Shown one piece after another: positions 31,391-50,520 of a stretch of DNA of 64,000 nucleotides. The notes under the pieces are model-generated. The model was not told the DNA's origin. It saw only the letters and a list, made by a program, of their open reading frames with translations, and did not search any database. Made by a program: the position numbers and the translations under genes. The stretch comes from Alicyclobacillus sp. SP_1. Its GTDB lineage: Bacteria; Bacillota; Bacilli; Alicyclobacillales; Alicyclobacillaceae. Numbering within the stretch: position 1 is the stretch's first letter; each line of letters starts with the position of its first letter. The stretch spans positions 1 to 64,000 of the forward strand of contig NZ_JAMCCX010000094.1 in NCBI RefSeq assembly GCF_024706985.1. Direction: 5' to 3'.

Positions 31391-32266
31391 TCAATGAAAC
31401 TCTTCTGCCTGCAAGAGGCGCACCAGATGAACATCCTTTGCAAAGCCGCGAAAGGCATTGTAAATCCGCTGACCTGACGCCTGTGTGGGTGCGAGCACGA
31501 AGAGCGTTGGCCCGCTTCCGGACATAAAGACTCGGCTCCCACAGACCTGCTCCATGCGTTGCTTGAGGACAGCAACTTCCGGGTACATCTCTAAAGTAAC
31601 TGGCTGGAGCCCATTGAAGAATCGCCGCTCAACCAAGGAGATGTCGCCTAACTGTAGCGCTTCGACCATCGCATCACTGGTAGGCACAGAGCTGTAGCGG
31701 GCAGGGGTCAACGCCTGATAGACATCTGCCGTCGACACAAACAGCGGCGGCTTGAGCAGCACTACCCAGCCCCGAAGTCCATGAGTCACACGTGTCAATT
31801 GCTCTCCACGCCCACGCGCTACGGCACAACCGCCGTAGACACAAAACGGCACGTCTGAACCCACTTCAGCGCCAAGCGTGGCGAGGTCCTCCATGGACAA
31901 GCCGACCTGATAGAGCCGATTTAATCCGCGCAGAACGGCTGCTGCATCAGACGACCCACCAGCCAGACCCGCAGCTACAGGAATATGCTTGTCTAGGTGA
32001 ATGTGCACTCCGCCCAGGTGAATGTCTGTCTTCCGGAAAAACACTTGCGCCGCCGCAACCGCAAGATTTCTGCCATCAAGCGGGATGTTCGTTGCAGCCG
32101 ATTCCATGACAATGCGCTGGTCCTCTCCATCGAGTCTCTCCAGCCAAATCTGGTCGGACAAATCGACCGATTGGAGCACCATGTCCACTTCGTGGTAGCC
32201 GTCGGAGCGCCGACCTAGTACATCCAATGTTAAGTTAATCTTCGCATAGGCTTGTTCCAACACCAA
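31391..32266 (-). CDS. ispE: 4-diphosphocytidyl-2-C-methyl-D-erythritol kinase
   Basis: Phosphorylates CDP-methylerythritol in the MEP route to isoprenoids. The 291-aa GHMP kinase has AYAKINLTLDVLGRRSDGYH at the N-terminus, the ATP loop PVAAGLAGGSSDAAAVLRGL and the C-terminal MSGSGPTLF. GAGGTGGGG lies just upstream of a cluster CTG-TTG-GTG-TTG; TTG at 32266 is chosen by spacing, with 32275 (GTG) or 32269 (CTG) possible. The gene is between cphA and purR, whereas in B. subtilis sspF and veg lie upstream. Confidence 0.94.
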   Translation of the reverse strand: MVLEQAYAKINLTLDVLGRRSDGYHEVDMVLQSVDLSDQIWLERLDGEDQRIVMESAATNIPLDGRNLAVAAAQVFFRKTDIHLGGVHIHLDKHIPVAAGLAGGSSDAAAVLRGLNRLYQVGLSMEDLATLGAEVGSDVPFCVYGGCAVARGRGEQLTRVTHGLRGWVVLLKPPLFVSTADVYQALTPARYSSVPTSDAMVEALQLGDISLVERRFFNGLQPVTLEMYPEVAVLKQRMEQVCGSRVFMSGSGPTLFVLAPTQASGQRIYNAFRGFAKDVHLVRLLQAEEFH

Positions 32267-32318
32267 CAGCCCCACCTCGTCGCCCTATAGAATGCGACGT
32301 GATGGGGTGCAAGTCAAG

Positions 32319-32360: not shown

Positions 32361-35006
32361 TTATAGTACCACGTACTGTGGTTGTGAGAGAGGCATTTCG
32401 ACCGTCTCTACTGGAACTGCACCCACTGCAAGCAAGTGCTCCACAAGTGGTTCACGATGCTCGTAGAAAACAACCACCATATCCTGAGCCGTACACTCCG
32501 AGACAGCACTTCGAAATGCGCTCAGTTCATCGAGCACCACTTGACACGACCGGTCTGGGCGACGCTCTTGAATGCGATGGGCCAAAAGGCGCGCGATTTC
32601 ACCATCGGCTCTACCGCGTTTGTCCTCATCTTCTTTGACAATGATACGGTGGAAGATGTTCGACAAAGCATCGGCGGAAGCCATCACCACTTCATTGGCA
32701 CGGTCTCCCGGCACACCGACCACGCCGATGAGCCGTCGGACCGGGAGCGTCTTGAGCCAGTCGCCAATCGACGCAAATCCGGCTGGGTTATGCCCGTAGT
32801 CCAACAGCACGTGTCCACCGTTTTGAAGTCGATAGAGCATGACTCGACCCGCATTGTGACGCGGTTCGAAAGCGCAAAGCGCAGTTGCAACGCGTTCTCG
32901 AGACAAGCCGAGCGCTCGCAACGCCGCCACGGCCGCCAATACGTTCTCCACCTGGAACAGAGCCTTCCCTCCCAGTGTGATGGGAACATCGGCAATCGGC
33001 AGAAACGCTCGCTCAAAACTCCCCATAGCTTCGACTACAAATCCTCGGTCCACGTAATACGACCAGCCGCCGAGCGCAGCATGCCGCATGATATCGCGAT
33101 TGGCGTCACTGGCTGAGAAGAGGATGATGCGACTATTGAGCCGCTGCTGAAGTTCCAGAAGTTCTTTACAATCCGCGTTAAGCACCACATAGCCCGTTGG
33201 TTTGACGCACTCTGCGACGAGTGACTTGACACGGACCAAATCCGCAATCGTATCCACCCCGTCTTGTCCGAGATGATCCCCGCTGATATTCGTCAGCACC
33301 GCGACATCCGCATAATCATAGGCTAATCCCCCGCGGCAAATACCACCTCGGGCCGTTTCCAGGACGGCCACGTCGACGGTCGGATCGGACAATACCACAC
33401 GCGCACTTTGCGGACCCGTTGTGTCTCCGGACAATATCAACGAGTCGCCCACATAGACGCCTTCTGTGGTCGTCATCCCGACCGTGTGTCCCTGCTCTCG
33501 CAAACCGTGCGCTATTAACCGGGTGGTTGTGGTCTTACCGTTCGTCCCCGTGATGGACACAATCGGAATTCTCCCCGTTGCGTCATTCGGATATAGAGCG
33601 TCCACGATAGCCTTGGCCACGCGTCGACGATGGCCGAACGACGGGTGCTCGTGCATGCGGATGCCCGGTGCTGCATTGACCTCAATGACCACTGCACCCC
33701 CCACAACTTGGGCGCTGAACGGGTGCTCGATGACGAGATCGATACCACAGACATCGAGACCAATGGCCCTAGCCGCTCGCTCGGCCAATTGCGCATACAC
33801 TGGGTGCAACTTGTCGGTCACATCTTCGGCCTCGCCACCCGTGGACAGGTTGGCACTGTCTCGCAACACCACCGCTTCGAGAGGAGCAGGGACGCTGTCT
33901 AAAGTCAAACCGTGCTTGTCCAACGTTGCGAGGACAATTTCATCGATGTGAATTTTCGTGAGTGGACATTCGTGGTCCACGCCGCGAAGTGGGCTGGCGT
34001 TGGTGGCATCCACCAATTGTCGGATGGTCTTCTCTCCGTCGCCGACCACCGTGGCGGGCATGCGCAGCGCCGCCGCGACTAGGTTTCCGCCAACGCAGAG
34101 CGCACGAATATTTTGGCCCCGTTTGTATTCCTCGATGACTACGCCTGTTCCGTATCGGCAGGCAATTCGAAACGCCTCTACCACTTCCAACTCGGTCGCA
34201 AGACAGAGCGACACGCCGCGGCCCTGATTGCCAAACCGCGGCTTGGCAACCACCGGTGCCCCGATACCTCGAAACTCCCGCAGTGCCTCCTCTTCCGTAT
34301 AGGCAACTCCACCTCGCGGAACGGGGATGGCCGCTTCCGCCAACACCAGTTTCGTCTGCTCTTTGTCGCACGCCAGGTCCAGAGCGACAGCTGAACTGGC
34401 GTCCGTCAAGGTAGCTTCCAAGCGCTTACGATGGCGGCCGTATCCCAACTCCAGTACGCTGCCAGTCCCCAGCCTGCGTACCGGAATGTCACGCTCTTTA
34501 CAAGCCTCGACGATGGCCTTCGTGCTCGGCCCCAACTCCGTCTCGCGAAAGATGTCGCGAGCCTCGGCGAGAATAGGGTCAATCTCGACCGATCCGTTGT
34601 CAACCAAAGTCTTCACGACATCTACCGCGGCAGAGAGCAGGTAACGCTGCGTTTCGTAGGCTTTGCACTCCATAACGATGTCGTAAATACCCACATCTTC
34701 CGCCAGCATGGTCTTTCCATAGTGCACATCCAAGTCGAGATAGGTGCACAGTTCTATGGCCACATGTTCCACAATGTGTCCGAAATACGTGCCACCGTGC
34801 AGACGTTCGACAAATCCACCCGGTCTGCCCTTTGCACAATGATGGTCTGACAGACCCGGCAGCACCTGCAACAATCGACTCGAAAATCCTTCATAGTCCG
34901 AACTCTCTCGCCCCGTATATTCTTCCAAATGAATTTTCGCCATCAAAATCGGCTTGTACAAAAATACATTCGGGCCATCTATATGGCGCACCGAGACTAT
35001 TCTCAT
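32361..35006 (-). CDS. cphA: Cyanophycin synthetase
   Basis: Makes multi-L-arginyl-poly-L-aspartate (cyanophycin), a nitrogen-storage polymer, using ATP. The 881-aa protein has the usual three parts: an N-terminal primer/scaffold domain (1-160), an ATP-grasp domain (about 215-475, with PVVAKPRFGNQGRGV at 251-265 and IEVNAAPG) adding aspartate, and a Mur-ligase-like domain with the P-loop GTNGKTTT (487-494) adding arginine. The ATG at 35006 follows AAGGAGCTG; the frame upstream overlaps cphB and is not family-like. It overlaps the cphB stop by 4 bases, so the pair is an operon. Insertion here displaces sspF relative to Bacillus. Confidence 0.95.
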   Translation of the reverse strand: MRIVSVRHIDGPNVFLYKPILMAKIHLEEYTGRESSDYEGFSSRLLQVLPGLSDHHCAKGRPGGFVERLHGGTYFGHIVEHVAIELCTYLDLDVHYGKTMLAEDVGIYDIVMECKAYETQRYLLSAAVDVVKTLVDNGSVEIDPILAEARDIFRETELGPSTKAIVEACKERDIPVRRLGTGSVLELGYGRHRKRLEATLTDASSAVALDLACDKEQTKLVLAEAAIPVPRGGVAYTEEEALREFRGIGAPVVAKPRFGNQGRGVSLCLATELEVVEAFRIACRYGTGVVIEEYKRGQNIRALCVGGNLVAAALRMPATVVGDGEKTIRQLVDATNASPLRGVDHECPLTKIHIDEIVLATLDKHGLTLDSVPAPLEAVVLRDSANLSTGGEAEDVTDKLHPVYAQLAERAARAIGLDVCGIDLVIEHPFSAQVVGGAVVIEVNAAPGIRMHEHPSFGHRRRVAKAIVDALYPNDATGRIPIVSITGTNGKTTTTRLIAHGLREQGHTVGMTTTEGVYVGDSLILSGDTTGPQSARVVLSDPTVDVAVLETARGGICRGGLAYDYADVAVLTNISGDHLGQDGVDTIADLVRVKSLVAECVKPTGYVVLNADCKELLELQQRLNSRIILFSASDANRDIMRHAALGGWSYYVDRGFVVEAMGSFERAFLPIADVPITLGGKALFQVENVLAAVAALRALGLSRERVATALCAFEPRHNAGRVMLYRLQNGGHVLLDYGHNPAGFASIGDWLKTLPVRRLIGVVGVPGDRANEVVMASADALSNIFHRIIVKEDEDKRGRADGEIARLLAHRIQERRPDRSCQVVLDELSAFRSAVSECTAQDMVVVFYEHREPLVEHLLAVGAVPVETVEMPLSQPQYVVL

Positions 35007-35845
35007 TTCGACAGCTCCTTGTCGACACTCTTCTCCCACTCTGACCAGTCGGTAATGGCGGATCGCGTTCTCATGTGAAATCCATACCCCTCCGGTAGAA
35101 TGTGCAAACGGACGCCACACAAGGCAAGTGACTCATCCCGATGTGCCGTCTCCAAATTACTGTGCGACAGTGCCCCGGCGTCCACAATGGACACTGCTCC
35201 GCGTCCGAGCACGCGCAGAACGCCATGATGGACGGAGATGGCCGTGTCCTCGTCAATGCCTAGCCCCAGATGATGCGGATATTGAGCAACTGCTGATAAC
35301 AGTCGGCCTAAGCGACCACGCTCTGCAAAGTGCTGGTCCACCACTACACCATCTAAAAATTCCATGCCCGGAGCCATATCCACAATAGAGATGCGTGGAC
35401 TGGTCTCTGCCTCCCCGTCAACAATCATGGTACTCGACATCATCGAGGCCCCCGCGCTGGTGCCAGCAAGCGGTATACCTGCCGCATGGACAGTGTGCAA
35501 CAGAGAGTCCACTCGCGTTCCTCCAAGTAGCTTCGTAATTCGTAACTGGTCTCCGCCTGTGAAAAAAATGCATGTCGCAGAACGCACAAGATCGACTGCG
35601 CTGTCGCGATTAGCGTCCTCGCGGCAAGAGACGTCAAACGTTCGTACATCCGCTGCACCGAGACGCTGAAACACCTCCATGTATTCCGCTCCCACTTCAA
35701 TGGGCAGTTCCGTGGCAACGGTCATCACCAGAACTTTTGCGTGCTTGTCTCCACCAAGTTCGAGAAAATGCCGCAGAATTTTGCAGTCTCCACGTTTATC
35801 TTCCGCGCCACCCACGATCACAAGGGGACCCGCCTGCCCTGTCAC
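35003..35845 (-). CDS. cphB: Cyanophycinase
   Basis: Serine-type exopeptidase that breaks cyanophycin to beta-Asp-Arg dipeptides. The 280-aa protein begins with GPLVIVGGAEDKRGD and has the nucleophile elbow GTSAGAS (Ser130) and the preceding IFFTGGDQ, as in the S51 peptidase family. GGGAGGAGGGAAG precedes a GTG at 35845, the preferred start; the frame continues upstream without homology. It is the first gene of the cphB-cphA operon. Lacking a signal peptide, it should act in the cytoplasm on stored granules. The dipeptidase that finishes the job is not in this window. Confidence 0.93.
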   Translation of the reverse strand: MTGQAGPLVIVGGAEDKRGDCKILRHFLELGGDKHAKVLVMTVATELPIEVGAEYMEVFQRLGAADVRTFDVSCREDANRDSAVDLVRSATCIFFTGGDQLRITKLLGGTRVDSLLHTVHAAGIPLAGTSAGASMMSSTMIVDGEAETSPRISIVDMAPGMEFLDGVVVDQHFAERGRLGRLLSAVAQYPHHLGLGIDEDTAISVHHGVLRVLGRGAVSIVDAGALSHSNLETAHRDESLALCGVRLHILPEGYGFHMRTRSAITDWSEWEKSVDKELSK

Positions 35846-36004
35846 CGACTTCCCTCCTCCCGCGCCGACAAATACGCCACACGCGATTGCCGTAACGCGG
35901 CCAGATCGTCTTTTAGCGCTATCCAACTCCAAAGCAGGAAACTTCAGAACTAGATAACAGCCCTAGGCTTTACGACGAGCCGAATAGATATACGCAGACA
36001 ACAA

Positions 36005-36036
36005 AAAGCCCCACACTAGGGTGAGGTCTTCTCCAC
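36005..36036 (-). terminator. Possible terminator after veg
   Basis: On the minus strand AAGaCCtCAC can pair imperfectly with GTGtGGgGCTT and is followed by TTTTTGTTGT, about 100 bases beyond the veg stop. Pairing is imperfect. Confidence 0.45.
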
Positions 36037-36131
36037 TCAAATTGCTATTAATCATCTATATACGCATTCCGACTTGAATTTATCTTTACTTCTTCATGAC
36101 CTCGTACCTTTCACTCCAACGACTGCATACG

Positions 36132-36398
36132 CTACATGACATGCGTGTTTTCATCGTCTTTGCACCATACGAGTTCCACTGTCTCCGTCAGCACGTCCGC
36201 ATAGCTGTATGACACTCGCTTAAACGAACCATCCGGGGGGTCAAGCTTGACTACAAAAACTGAAGGATACGTCTCTTCCAGAACGCCAAAACGCTCTACC
36301 GTCTTTCTGCGCCCTCCATTGGCTCGCAAGAGAACACGCTCACCAATGAGACCTTCCAAATTTCTCTTAATATCGTGGAGCGCATTTTTCGCCAACAC
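36132..36398 (-). CDS. veg: Veg family protein
   Basis: An 88-aa small protein of the Veg family: [29 protein letters not shown] at the start in two blocks and [16 protein letters not shown] in the centre, an SH3-like beta fold. In B. subtilis Veg stimulates biofilm matrix genes by affecting SinR and is made at a very high level in vegetative cells. The start is GTG 36398 or the next TTG, after AGAGGTGG. Two strong sigma-A promoters precede it. Flanked by yabG as in Bacillus, but followed by the cyanophycin operon. Confidence 0.93.
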
Positions 36399-36459: not shown

Positions 36460-36489
36460 ATTATAGCAACGCATCAAATTCGTTGTCAA
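36460..36489 (-). promoter_or_regulatory. veg distal sigma-A promoter
   Basis: TTGACA (36484-36489) and TATAAT (36460-36465) on the minus strand, both perfect, with an 18-bp spacer. It stands about 40 bp upstream of the proximal promoter. Confidence 0.85.
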
Positions 36490-36519: not shown

Positions 36520-37383
36520 TCATCCGTAAAACGATTTCGGCAGGCCGAGACGATACTTTCCTCGCGATTCCAGCCCGCCAACACCGTCCGTACCCGTGTA
36601 AGTCGCTTTCACCACGTCGTACAGGTTGACCGTTTCATGAATCGGCGTAAACGCAATTTTCTCCGCGATAAAGACCGGATCGAGAGCATGAATCATGATG
36701 CGCTGCGGAGAACTAGCAAAGTTGGCCCCCGCTTCGATAATACCTTCAAAGTGACTTTGACACGCTCCGGCAATAATGACTAAGTCATCTAAGTTTCGAA
36801 TTTTCTTTCGTGCATTGGCTACCGTTCGGATAAAGTTTTGGGAATTGCGGTAGTTCTGTACATCTGCCAAATCTTTTCCTTTGCGAATGACGCCATCATG
36901 CCCTGTGACGATGAGGATATCTGGACTGTATTTGTCCAACAGCGTTGCGACCGCCTCGGGCATCTTTGCCTCTGCAATGTGTTCCCCGACCGCCCGGACC
37001 CCAAGTTCTTTGTACATATTGAGACATTTTTGAAGATATGTCCCATCGCCATCCAGGTGCAGAACTCGTCCGGGCCGCTCAAAAAAATCCGGATTGGACT
37101 GATAGCGCACTTCACGCCTCAGCGATCTCTTTTCATGTTCCACCGCCCGCCGCGAACGAATGAGTCGCAAACTCTCTCCCTCGGATTGACTTCGCTGAAC
37201 CTCGAATTCGCGTTTCTCTTCTTCCGACATTTCCTCCAAATCAGCGAACGGCGCATCGGCCATCAAGCGCACATCCAGACCTTTGAGAATGGCTGTCTCC
37301 GTCTCTTCATCGACTTCCACCACCTGAAAGCAGACGTCCTTTCCGTAAGACTGTCGCACGACCATATCGCCAGCCTTCCACAT
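36520..37383 (-). CDS. yabG: Sporulation-specific protease YabG
   Basis: A cysteine protease that trims spore coat proteins in the mother cell. The 287-aa protein starts MWKAGDMVVRQSYGKDVCF and shows VLHLDGDGTYLQKCLNMYK, PDILIVTGHDG and the IIAGACQSHFEGIIEAGANFASSP core in separate stretches, with the catalytic His/Cys in GHDG and GACQSH. The ATG at 37383 has GGGGAGGAG upstream. A sigma-K type promoter sits 31-57 bases upstream, matching mother-cell late expression in B. subtilis. Located next to veg, as in Bacillus, but separated from rsmA by two plus/minus insert genes. Confidence 0.95.
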   Translation of the reverse strand: MWKAGDMVVRQSYGKDVCFQVVEVDEETETAILKGLDVRLMADAPFADLEEMSEEEKREFEVQRSQSEGESLRLIRSRRAVEHEKRSLRREVRYQSNPDFFERPGRVLHLDGDGTYLQKCLNMYKELGVRAVGEHIAEAKMPEAVATLLDKYSPDILIVTGHDGVIRKGKDLADVQNYRNSQNFIRTVANARKKIRNLDDLVIIAGACQSHFEGIIEAGANFASSPQRIMIHALDPVFIAEKIAFTPIHETVNLYDVVKATYTGTDGVGGLESRGKYRLGLPKSFYG

Positions 37384-37413
37384 AAGCACTCCTCCCCGCC
37401 CATTTTCGTACTC

Positions 37414-49089: not shown

Positions 49090-50520
49090 TCAGTCAGCCA
49101 AGATACTCAATTCCAGTCCGGCCTGCCCGACTCTGCTACCAACCGGAATTCTGTCCAGTTCTGCAAGACAGATGAGCGCCTCCACGTGTCCCGGTTCAAT
49201 GCGCTCACCTGGCAAAAGAATGGGGACACCCGGCGGGTAGGGCACGACCACGCGCGCCGCCAACTGACCCATCGCTTGGCGGGCCCTGCACCAGCGACGC
49301 TTCGTATGAGTGAGCGCGGCCGGCTTGCCGACGACCAAATTCACATGCCTTTCGGACACAAATCGAAGCGCATCCAGCAACTTCGCATCTCGCTGGTCGT
49401 TGGCTGGGCGCCAGACATCCAGAACCGCGCCAAGACGCTCCAACTCCCTCACACGAACGCTGTAGGGAAAGAGAAACAGCGCCCCGGACGGATCGACATA
49501 CTCTACAAAAATTCCCTCGGCCTCCAACAACCTCTCCAGATGTAAGGCTGCAGCGGCGTTTCCTATGGGCCACCAGCGCCTGAGTCCGTCCATGCGCTCC
49601 GCATCACGAGACAAGCCATGCATCTCGTCAAACAACCCGAGGGTGGCAACGGCTCGCGATGCGATGACCGCTCCCTCGGTGCGCAACCAAGCCTGTGCGA
49701 CGTCGAGCGAAGCTAAAAGCAGATAAGACGGACTCGTGGTGGTGAAGCGCAGCAATGCGTCTTCAACCGCCTCTTCCTCCACGCGCCGACCACTGACGTG
49801 GAGCCATGCAGTTTGACCCAATGCAGGCAAAGTTTTATGAACGCTCTGCACAACCAAATCTGCACCGTGAGAGACACTGTGCGGCGGCAACGACGAACAG
49901 AGGCCAAAATGCGGGCCATGAGCCTCGTCGACAATCAACGGACAGTCGAACTCGTGAGCTAGTTGGACCCAGTCTGCGACAGGCGCCACAATGCCTGCAT
50001 AGACTGGCGACGTGATGACCACTGCCGCAATATCGGTATACCCCGCAAGCGCAACGCGCACAGAATCGACCGGGGGATGCAGCGCAAGCAAGCTTTCGCG
50101 GTCAAACCGTGAAGGGAACACCAGCGGCGTGGCTCCCGCCATTTCCACTCCGCGCCATACACTCCAATGAAATGGACCAACAAGGACCACTTTCTGTCTG
50201 CCCGGACGAACGACTGCATAGATACTAGCCATGATACACGCGCTCGATCCGTTGACCGAAAAGAAACACCGTCCGGACCCATAGTGTGTGGCTGCCAGTT
50301 GTTCCGATTCGGCAATGCACTCGGTCGCATGGTGCAAGTTGTCGAGTCCGGGCAGCTCCGTCATATCAAGACGGGCTGCCGGACCTAGCCAATCGGCAAA
50401 CAAAGGCGGCAAATCGCGCCCGAGGTGATGTCCGGGAACGTGCAGAGGCTGGCGATTTTTCTGACTAAGCCGGATGAGGGCCTGTAAAATTGGAGTTTCC
50501 TCCAGTGATAAAATCCCCAT
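49090..50520 (-). CDS. Orn/Lys/Arg decarboxylase-family PLP enzyme (YaaO-like)
   Basis: A 476-aa fold-type I PLP enzyme. The cofactor lysine is Lys229 in SVHKTLPALGQ; Asp198-Glu-Ala-His201 (VDEAHG) contacts the ring. The N-terminal PLHVPGHHLGRDLPPLF and NLHHATECIAESEQLAA are typical of the class. It probably decarboxylates arginine, lysine or ornithine to a polyamine precursor; which one cannot be read from sequence. The C-terminal domain holds PYPPGVPILLPGERI. B. subtilis yaaO lies at the same place before tmk. Confidence 0.9.
   Translation of the reverse strand: MGILSLEETPILQALIRLSQKNRQPLHVPGHHLGRDLPPLFADWLGPAARLDMTELPGLDNLHHATECIAESEQLAATHYGSGRCFFSVNGSSACIMASIYAVVRPGRQKVVLVGPFHWSVWRGVEMAGATPLVFPSRFDRESLLALHPPVDSVRVALAGYTDIAAVVITSPVYAGIVAPVADWVQLAHEFDCPLIVDEAHGPHFGLCSSLPPHSVSHGADLVVQSVHKTLPALGQTAWLHVSGRRVEEEAVEDALLRFTTTSPSYLLLASLDVAQAWLRTEGAVIASRAVATLGLFDEMHGLSRDAERMDGLRRWWPIGNAAAALHLERLLEAEGIFVEYVDPSGALFLFPYSVRVRELERLGAVLDVWRPANDQRDAKLLDALRFVSERHVNLVVGKPAALTHTKRRWCRARQAMGQLAARVVVPYPPGVPILLPGERIEPGHVEALICLAELDRIPVGSRVGQAGLELSILAD

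Follow-up and report, generated by a model that had tools for sequence, protein, structure and literature searches.

A cyanophycin operon beside spore genes in Alicyclobacillus and its possible use in the forespore of Bacillota

The cphB-cphA locus

The window considered here, a stretch of 64,000 nucleotides from Alicyclobacillus sp. SP_1 (contig NZ_JAMCCX010000094.1, positions 1 to 64,000), carries between veg and ispE a two-gene operon, cphBA, for cyanophycinase (CphB) and cyanophycin synthetase (CphA). Many distant Firmicutes carry the two genes in this spore-gene neighbourhood, in many cases with a forespore-type promoter, which suggests that the polymer is an old part of spore-making and not a local oddity. 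The locus comprises the following features.

32361-35006, minus strand: cphA, cyanophycin synthetase of the CphA1 type, 881 aa (TIGR02068; 7lg5 alignment; active-site residues)
35003-35845, minus strand: cphB, cyanophycinase, GTG start, 280 aa (TIGR02069; structures 7uqv and 3en0)
35853-35858, minus strand: ribosome-binding site of cphB, AGGAGG (read from the sequence)
35964-35993, minus strand: candidate sigma-F promoter with two mismatches (model match; the sites of relatives in this intergenic region are better)
36009-36026, minus strand: terminator-like hairpin 3' of veg (hairpin scan)
31391-32275, minus strand: ispE, downstream neighbour (TIGR00154, 285.7 bits)
36132-36398, minus strand: veg, upstream neighbour (NF046033, 142.1 bits)
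36520-37389, minus strand: yabG, full-length gene of a sporulation peptidase, upstream neighbour (TIGR02855, 376.1 bits)

An earlier description of this DNA, made from its letters only (the sequence-only reading), had placed overlapping cphB and cphA genes with a strong cphB ribosome site between veg and ispE, and family models and the sequence confirm it. The cphB stop and the cphA start overlap by four bases (ATGA), AGGAGG (35858-35853) lies seven bases 5' of the cphB GTG, and both genes look intact. The minus strand reads yabG, veg, cphB, cphA, ispE, purR, ridA, spoVG, glmU, prs. With a terminator-like hairpin after veg, cphBA would need its own promoter; the region holds four such hairpins against 3.6 expected from shuffles, and the one at 36009-36026 is weak on its own.

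The encoded enzymes

The CphA of the window scores 1111.3 bits against TIGR02068 (cut-off 850) over residues 2-858 of 881, and its CphB scores 300 bits against TIGR02069 (cut-off 126.6). CphB aligns with the solved cyanophycinases 7uqv and 3en0 and retains GTSAGA, DQHF and GIDEDT, the motifs which we take to hold the catalytic Ser, His and Glu. The solved synthetase 7lg5 aligns with CphA residues 1-850, nearly the whole length. The Asp-His pair (D585, H586) of the M-site, where the Mur-ligase domain handles Arg, and the P-loop GTNGKTTT are kept, which rules out an enzyme of the CphA2 type without an Arg site. Residues 59, 79, 82, 83, 267, 585 and 586 of 7lg5 match those given for SuCphA1 in PMC9262961, and the structure is taken to be that enzyme on this ground. 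The motif Cx19HxxEH, by which the N domain cuts primers, is reported for 83% of CphA1 enzymes (PMC9262961); it is present in the window and in all 128 full-length CphA rows examined. The protein is predicted from its sequence to be a CphA1 that makes cyanophycin from Asp, Arg and ATP.

Distribution and descent of the operon

The order set comprised 59 genomes, the window's own included, of which 57 were fetched for synteny; G013 and G056 (62% and 73% complete) were left out. CphA sequence occurs in 58/59 genomes (in 53 over the cut-off and in 5 below it, in pieces), and CphB is over the cut-off in 57/59. The search for cphA-cphB between ispE and veg in relatives, which the sequence-only reading had proposed, found veg-cphB-cphA-ispE on one contig in 48 of the 57 fetched genomes, the other nine loci being cut by contig ends. 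The possibility raised there, that the operon is confined to one strain with mobile-element remnants, is ruled out by its order-wide presence and its recurrence in distant Firmicutes.

The loci from named genomes are the best 80 of one scan, and the counts of clostridial and other non-Bacilli copies at the locus, and of copies elsewhere, draw on these. cphA stands directly before ispE in 43 of them and in Alicyclobacillus mali (L211, a Bacilli row), in many cases after yabG or veg; 28 loci lie elsewhere, six could not be assigned, and two (L192, L207) were dropped for having fewer than 100 bases upstream. Three of the 28 are doubtful: L140 and L168 break off shortly past cphB, and L205 has cphA-ispE beside cphB in a rearranged order. 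The order cphB-cphA-ispE was found in Clostridium, Caloramator, Fonticella, Desulfosporosinus, Sporomusa, Propionispora, Lucifera, Fervidicola, Syntrophomonadaceae and others. In one Clostridium (L173), a SPOCS/LysM protein gene precedes cphB, and relatives of gerA, gerB and gerC follow ispE.

The CphA tree was built by a quick search from 95 CphA rows and one outgroup, taken from the 128 full-length rows, and its backbone lacks resolution. The 28 Bacilli rows at the locus form one clade (SH-aLRT 100), the Desulfitobacteriaceae rows another and the Sporomusa-like rows a third, and the copies found elsewhere nest within the clostridial part, except for the doubtful L205. With one sequence as outgroup and unresolved deep branches, the tree is best read as descent of cphBA from an early ancestor within the Bacillota, though it does not prove it. 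On such descent, the veg-sspF-ispE arrangement of the Bacillus type probably reflects loss of the operon. Two Bacilli outside the order, G067 (L071) and G075 (L126), carry clostridial-type cphBA away from veg-ispE, and their CphB is closer to 7uqv (64%) than is CphB at the locus (47-49%); these copies were probably acquired by transfer.

It had also been claimed that cphBA occupies the place of the Bacillus sspF. This is wrong, as the relatives read veg-sspF-cphB-cphA-ispE. sspF adjoins veg in 52/57 fetched genomes of the order; it is missing at the locus in the window's genome (G000), its congener (G001) and G048, and could not be assessed in G052 and G055, where contigs end. Outside the order, loci were fetched for 39/62 genomes of the class; 37 of the 39 hold veg and ispE together, of which 31 have sspF and six have cphBA, and all six loci with cphBA also have sspF. 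The finding of sspF beside veg in relatives that carry cphBA shows that the operon was its neighbour and not its successor. A recent replacement of sspF by cphBA in this lineage would agree with the window, where the operon is present and sspF is absent from the veg-ispE interval; however, the 52 genomes with sspF beside veg, in an order where cphBA is general, already refute it, and the replacement is rejected with hardly any doubt. sspF was lost later, in the window's genus. The SspF model has no match anywhere in the window's genome (99.98% complete) or in the congener, which keep two and three other alpha/beta small acid-soluble spore protein (SASP) genes, respectively. Alpha/beta SASP matches are also scarce in the genomes whose locus lacks sspF (two in G000, three in G001, one in G048; up to nine in relatives). 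In G052 (L120), an sspF match at the end of the contig beside cphB lies in the opposite orientation to that gene, through rearrangement or an assembly fault.

Promoters upstream of cphB

Unfitted consensus models of six sigma factors were scored upstream of cphB against dinucleotide shuffles; some of the upstream sequences had been read before the scoring. Within one mismatch, sigma-F sites occur in 31/62 Bacilli regions (shuffles: mean 0.3, max 1) and sigma-G sites in 16/62 (mean 1.05, max 4). For clostridia and others at the locus, sigma-F sites are found in 30/43 regions, 12 of them perfect (shuffles: mean 1.03, max 5), and sigma-G sites in 10/43 (mean 2.87, max 7). Permuting the sigma-F model 1000 times never gave as many sites as either of these sigma-F counts (max 5 and 11). 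The other models gave, at the same level in the Bacilli, 0/62 for sigma-A, sigma-E and sigma-H and 1/62 for sigma-K. Control by sigma-E, sigma-K, sigma-A or sigma-H was rejected, as none exceeds the shuffles within one mismatch before cphB.

The behaviour of the models at neighbouring genes of the Bacilli set can be compared with what is known or expected from B. subtilis, namely sigma-A for veg, sigma-K for yabG, sigma-H for spoVG and sigma-G for sspF. These sites were recovered in 60/60, 41/56, 18/51 and 20/58 regions, respectively, and no sigma-F site was found before ispE (0/56) or purR (0/55). The pair GTATA / GGACAGCCTA found in this analysis is much like the sigma-F promoter of B. subtilis csfB, GTATA / GGGGAGGCTA (PMC4383634).

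The sequence-only reading had proposed looking for a promoter at 35846-36130. A candidate sigma-F site was found there, GTATA (35993-35989), 15 bases and GTAAAGCCTA (35973-35964), but it has two mismatches and is weak on its own, and the window's sequence by itself is insufficient as evidence for a promoter. The window's genome encodes sigF (358.1 bits, cut-off 321.45); with sigF, a full yabG and SASP genes, the organism probably sporulates.

Isoaspartyl dipeptidase as a probable third enzyme

For the last step of cyanophycin breakdown, PMC10206079 reports IadA or IaaA for no more than 10.1% of 179 CphA1-bearing Firmicutes genomes and speaks of the Firmicutes dipeptidase as undiscovered. In our search, which covered IadA only, this isoaspartyl dipeptidase is over the cut-off in 47/55 genomes of the order, unlinked to cphBA; in the window's genome it lies at G000:C39:1553-2716 (511.3 bits). 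If the forespore explanation set out below holds, most genomes of the order would have a known dipeptidase for this step. The iadA upstream regions come from 40 of these 47 genomes, the window's (G000) and 39 others (L222-L261). Sigma-F-like sites with at most two mismatches occur in 23/40 (permuted models: mean 4.7, max 13) and with one mismatch in 5/40 (mean 0.4, max 4); with another choice of start codons the counts are 24 and 6, where shuffles average 3.85 and 0.35. This signal does not reach the strength of that before cphB, and no well-placed sigma-F-like site lies upstream of the window's own iadA.

A rival explanation gives the polymer or the synthetase a part in spore assembly, where it would be a matrix or building material of the spore or mother cell instead of a reserve. 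Liu et al. in 2016 reportedly linked cphA/cphB of C. perfringens to spore assembly, from the proteome of one species. A role of C. perfringens cphA in spore assembly is cited in PMC5532821 and PMC6174930 and speaks for this explanation. However, the promoters point to the forespore and not to the mother cell, as sigma-E and sigma-K sites upstream of cphB do not exceed the shuffles, and the presence of cphB and iadA alongside cphA suggests turnover. We consider a structural role rather unlikely.

Co-occurrence with sporulation

Co-occurrence was scored as cyanophycinase over the cut-off against a spoIVA match. In a sample of 150 genomes from the class of Sporomusa (Negativicutes), cyanophycinase is found in 39/52 genomes with spoIVA and in 1/98 without (Fisher p 1.4e-23, kinship uncorrected). 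In a sample of 245 genomes from the class of Clostridium, the counts are 50/174 with spoIVA and 5/71 without (p 1.5e-4). The tie between cphBA and sporulation suggested by the sequence-only reading is supported by gene neighbourhood, forespore-type promoters and spoIVA co-occurrence; we infer that the polymer may be stored for sporulation or germination.

The usual role of cyanophycin in cyanobacteria is that of a general nitrogen or arginine store, which makes it conceivable that the polymer is such a store of vegetative or stationary cells here too and that its spore-gene neighbourhood is an inherited accident. The weak promoter match of the window would fit this, as would the granules of C. 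ljungdahlii reported under non-sporulating growth conditions (PMC13241827, section 3.5). On the other side, sigma-A-type sites within one mismatch are lacking before cphB in all 62 Bacilli and all 43 other at-locus regions, where forespore-type sites abound, and cyanophycinase is nearly absent from Negativicutes without spoIVA. We consider a general store rather unlikely as well.

A possible forespore cyanophycin cycle

The explanation which we favour, holding it to be slightly on the probable side, is that cphB-cphA is an old and mainly vertically inherited Bacillota operon, transcribed in the forespore, whose product serves as an Arg/Asp reserve of the spore. The operon sits before ispE in the yabG-veg-sspF neighbourhood, and in many lineages keeping it, RNA polymerase with sigma-F (in some lineages sigma-G) would transcribe it in the forespore. 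As sigma-F is active after asymmetric division, cyanophycin would be made in the forespore at that time. CphA1, whose N-domain site would cut its own primers, would join Asp and Arg with ATP, and the polymer would be carried in the spore as a compact nitrogen reserve, beside the amino-acid reserve of the SASPs. At germination and outgrowth, CphB and, in most genomes of the order, IadA would release beta-Asp-Arg and then free Asp and Arg. The analysis establishes the genes, the residues, the synteny, the promoter statistics and the co-occurrence, and from these we infer the forespore timing, the presence of the polymer in the spore and its use; the least certain step is control in the window's genus, with sspF lost and a weak promoter match.

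Several observations weigh against this explanation. The G-site His267 of the solved synthetase is Gln in the window's CphA, and replacement of H267 by Ala in the G domain inactivated SuCphA1 (PMC9262961). Gln stands there in 55/55 Bacilli rows and in 31/42 clostridial at-locus rows (8 others have Lys and 3 His); Desulfitobacterium kin also have Gln, and a title cited in PMC5532821 reports polymer made by a recombinant synthetase of D. hafniense. Among the spoIVA-bearing clostridia of the sample, 124/174 lack a cyanophycinase over the cut-off. The promoter counts come from related sequences and overstate independence, kinship being uncorrected, and in 8/26 genera neither a sigma-F nor a sigma-G site comes within one mismatch. 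Sigma-F-like matches also occur before sspF (14/58) and glmU (4/48) in Bacilli, before veg in clostridia (7/24), and in the 200 bases before cphA at 10/43 clostridial at-locus loci, where the sequence is perhaps that of a second promoter inside the operon. cphB copies elsewhere in genomes have sigma-F sites as well (11/28; shuffles: mean 0.6, max 3), so this control is not tied to the locus; of the doubtful rows, L168 and L205 have a one-mismatch site and L140 has none. As to the window itself, shuffles reach the two-mismatch level in 5.2/62 regions on average, its 64 kb hold 92 two-mismatch sigma-F sites on both strands, and the congener G001 has no better site.

A wider form of the explanation, to which we would give an even chance, regards the cyanophycin cycle as an ancestral early-forespore module of Bacillota. 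In it, sigma-F would drive cphB-cphA, joined in this order by the unlinked iadA, and the product would form the Arg/Asp reserve of the spore. Bacillus would have lost the cycle, which would hence have gone largely unseen. In the window's genus, where sspF is gone and two or three SASP genes are left, a larger share of the reserve may fall to the polymer. If this is true, endospore formation has an old component, lost by the model Bacillus, in a nitrogen-storage polymer best known in cyanobacteria. Reports on single species would then lead to a prediction open to test across many spore-formers, namely forespore cyanophycin under sigma-F.

Relation to known systems

Adjacent genes for the same two enzymes are known from the CphA1/CphB operons of cyanobacteria, Acinetobacter, Desulfitobacterium and others. 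The window's locus differs from these in its spore-gene neighbourhood, in the forespore-type promoters of its relatives, in Gln for His267 in the G domain and in an unlinked IadA. cphA1 and cyanophycinase genes were reported to cluster in 81% of 658 genomes with both (PMC10206079).

A link between cyanophycin and sporulation is already in print. Like the operon described here, cphA/cphB of C. perfringens ties cyanophycin genes to sporulation in a Firmicute; whereas that evidence is the proteome of one species, here location, tree and promoters span many lineages and forespore control is proposed. In segmented filamentous bacteria, cphAB and ispE precede a ger operon and use in germination was proposed (PMC9482736), and cphB of C. 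ljungdahlii was placed among sporulation genes (PMC13241827, section 3.5). Both share the cphBA-ispE adjacency and a proposed use in germination or sporulation with the present case; however, they concern single lineages, and the available parts of these papers name no promoter, while many lineages and their promoters are compared here. Neither sigma-F control nor the phylum-wide location of cphBA is reported in the parts available of the open-access literature on cyanophycin and sporulation, a scope that mostly leaves out subscription papers and is no proof of novelty; the sigma-F-type promoter before cphB is the new element here. The veg-sspF-ispE interval of Bacillus and other Bacilli has the same flanking genes as the window but no cphBA, probably through loss, whereas the window, also through loss, has no sspF.

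Additional observations

The only one-mismatch sigma-F-like sites in the 64-kb window are at 36470 (plus strand), 43044 (minus strand) and 50921 (minus strand); the last lies upstream of 49090-50520, a gene weakly like Orn/Lys/Arg decarboxylases. Two loci of the survey have unusual reading frames. cphA of G011 (contig C1, 2252575-2255153; L082) is split into two overlapping frames, by a real frameshift or a sequencing fault. In G108 (contig C9, 1089758-1091824; L131), where no CphA over the cut-off is listed, two cyanophycinase-type stretches share one 852-aa frame.

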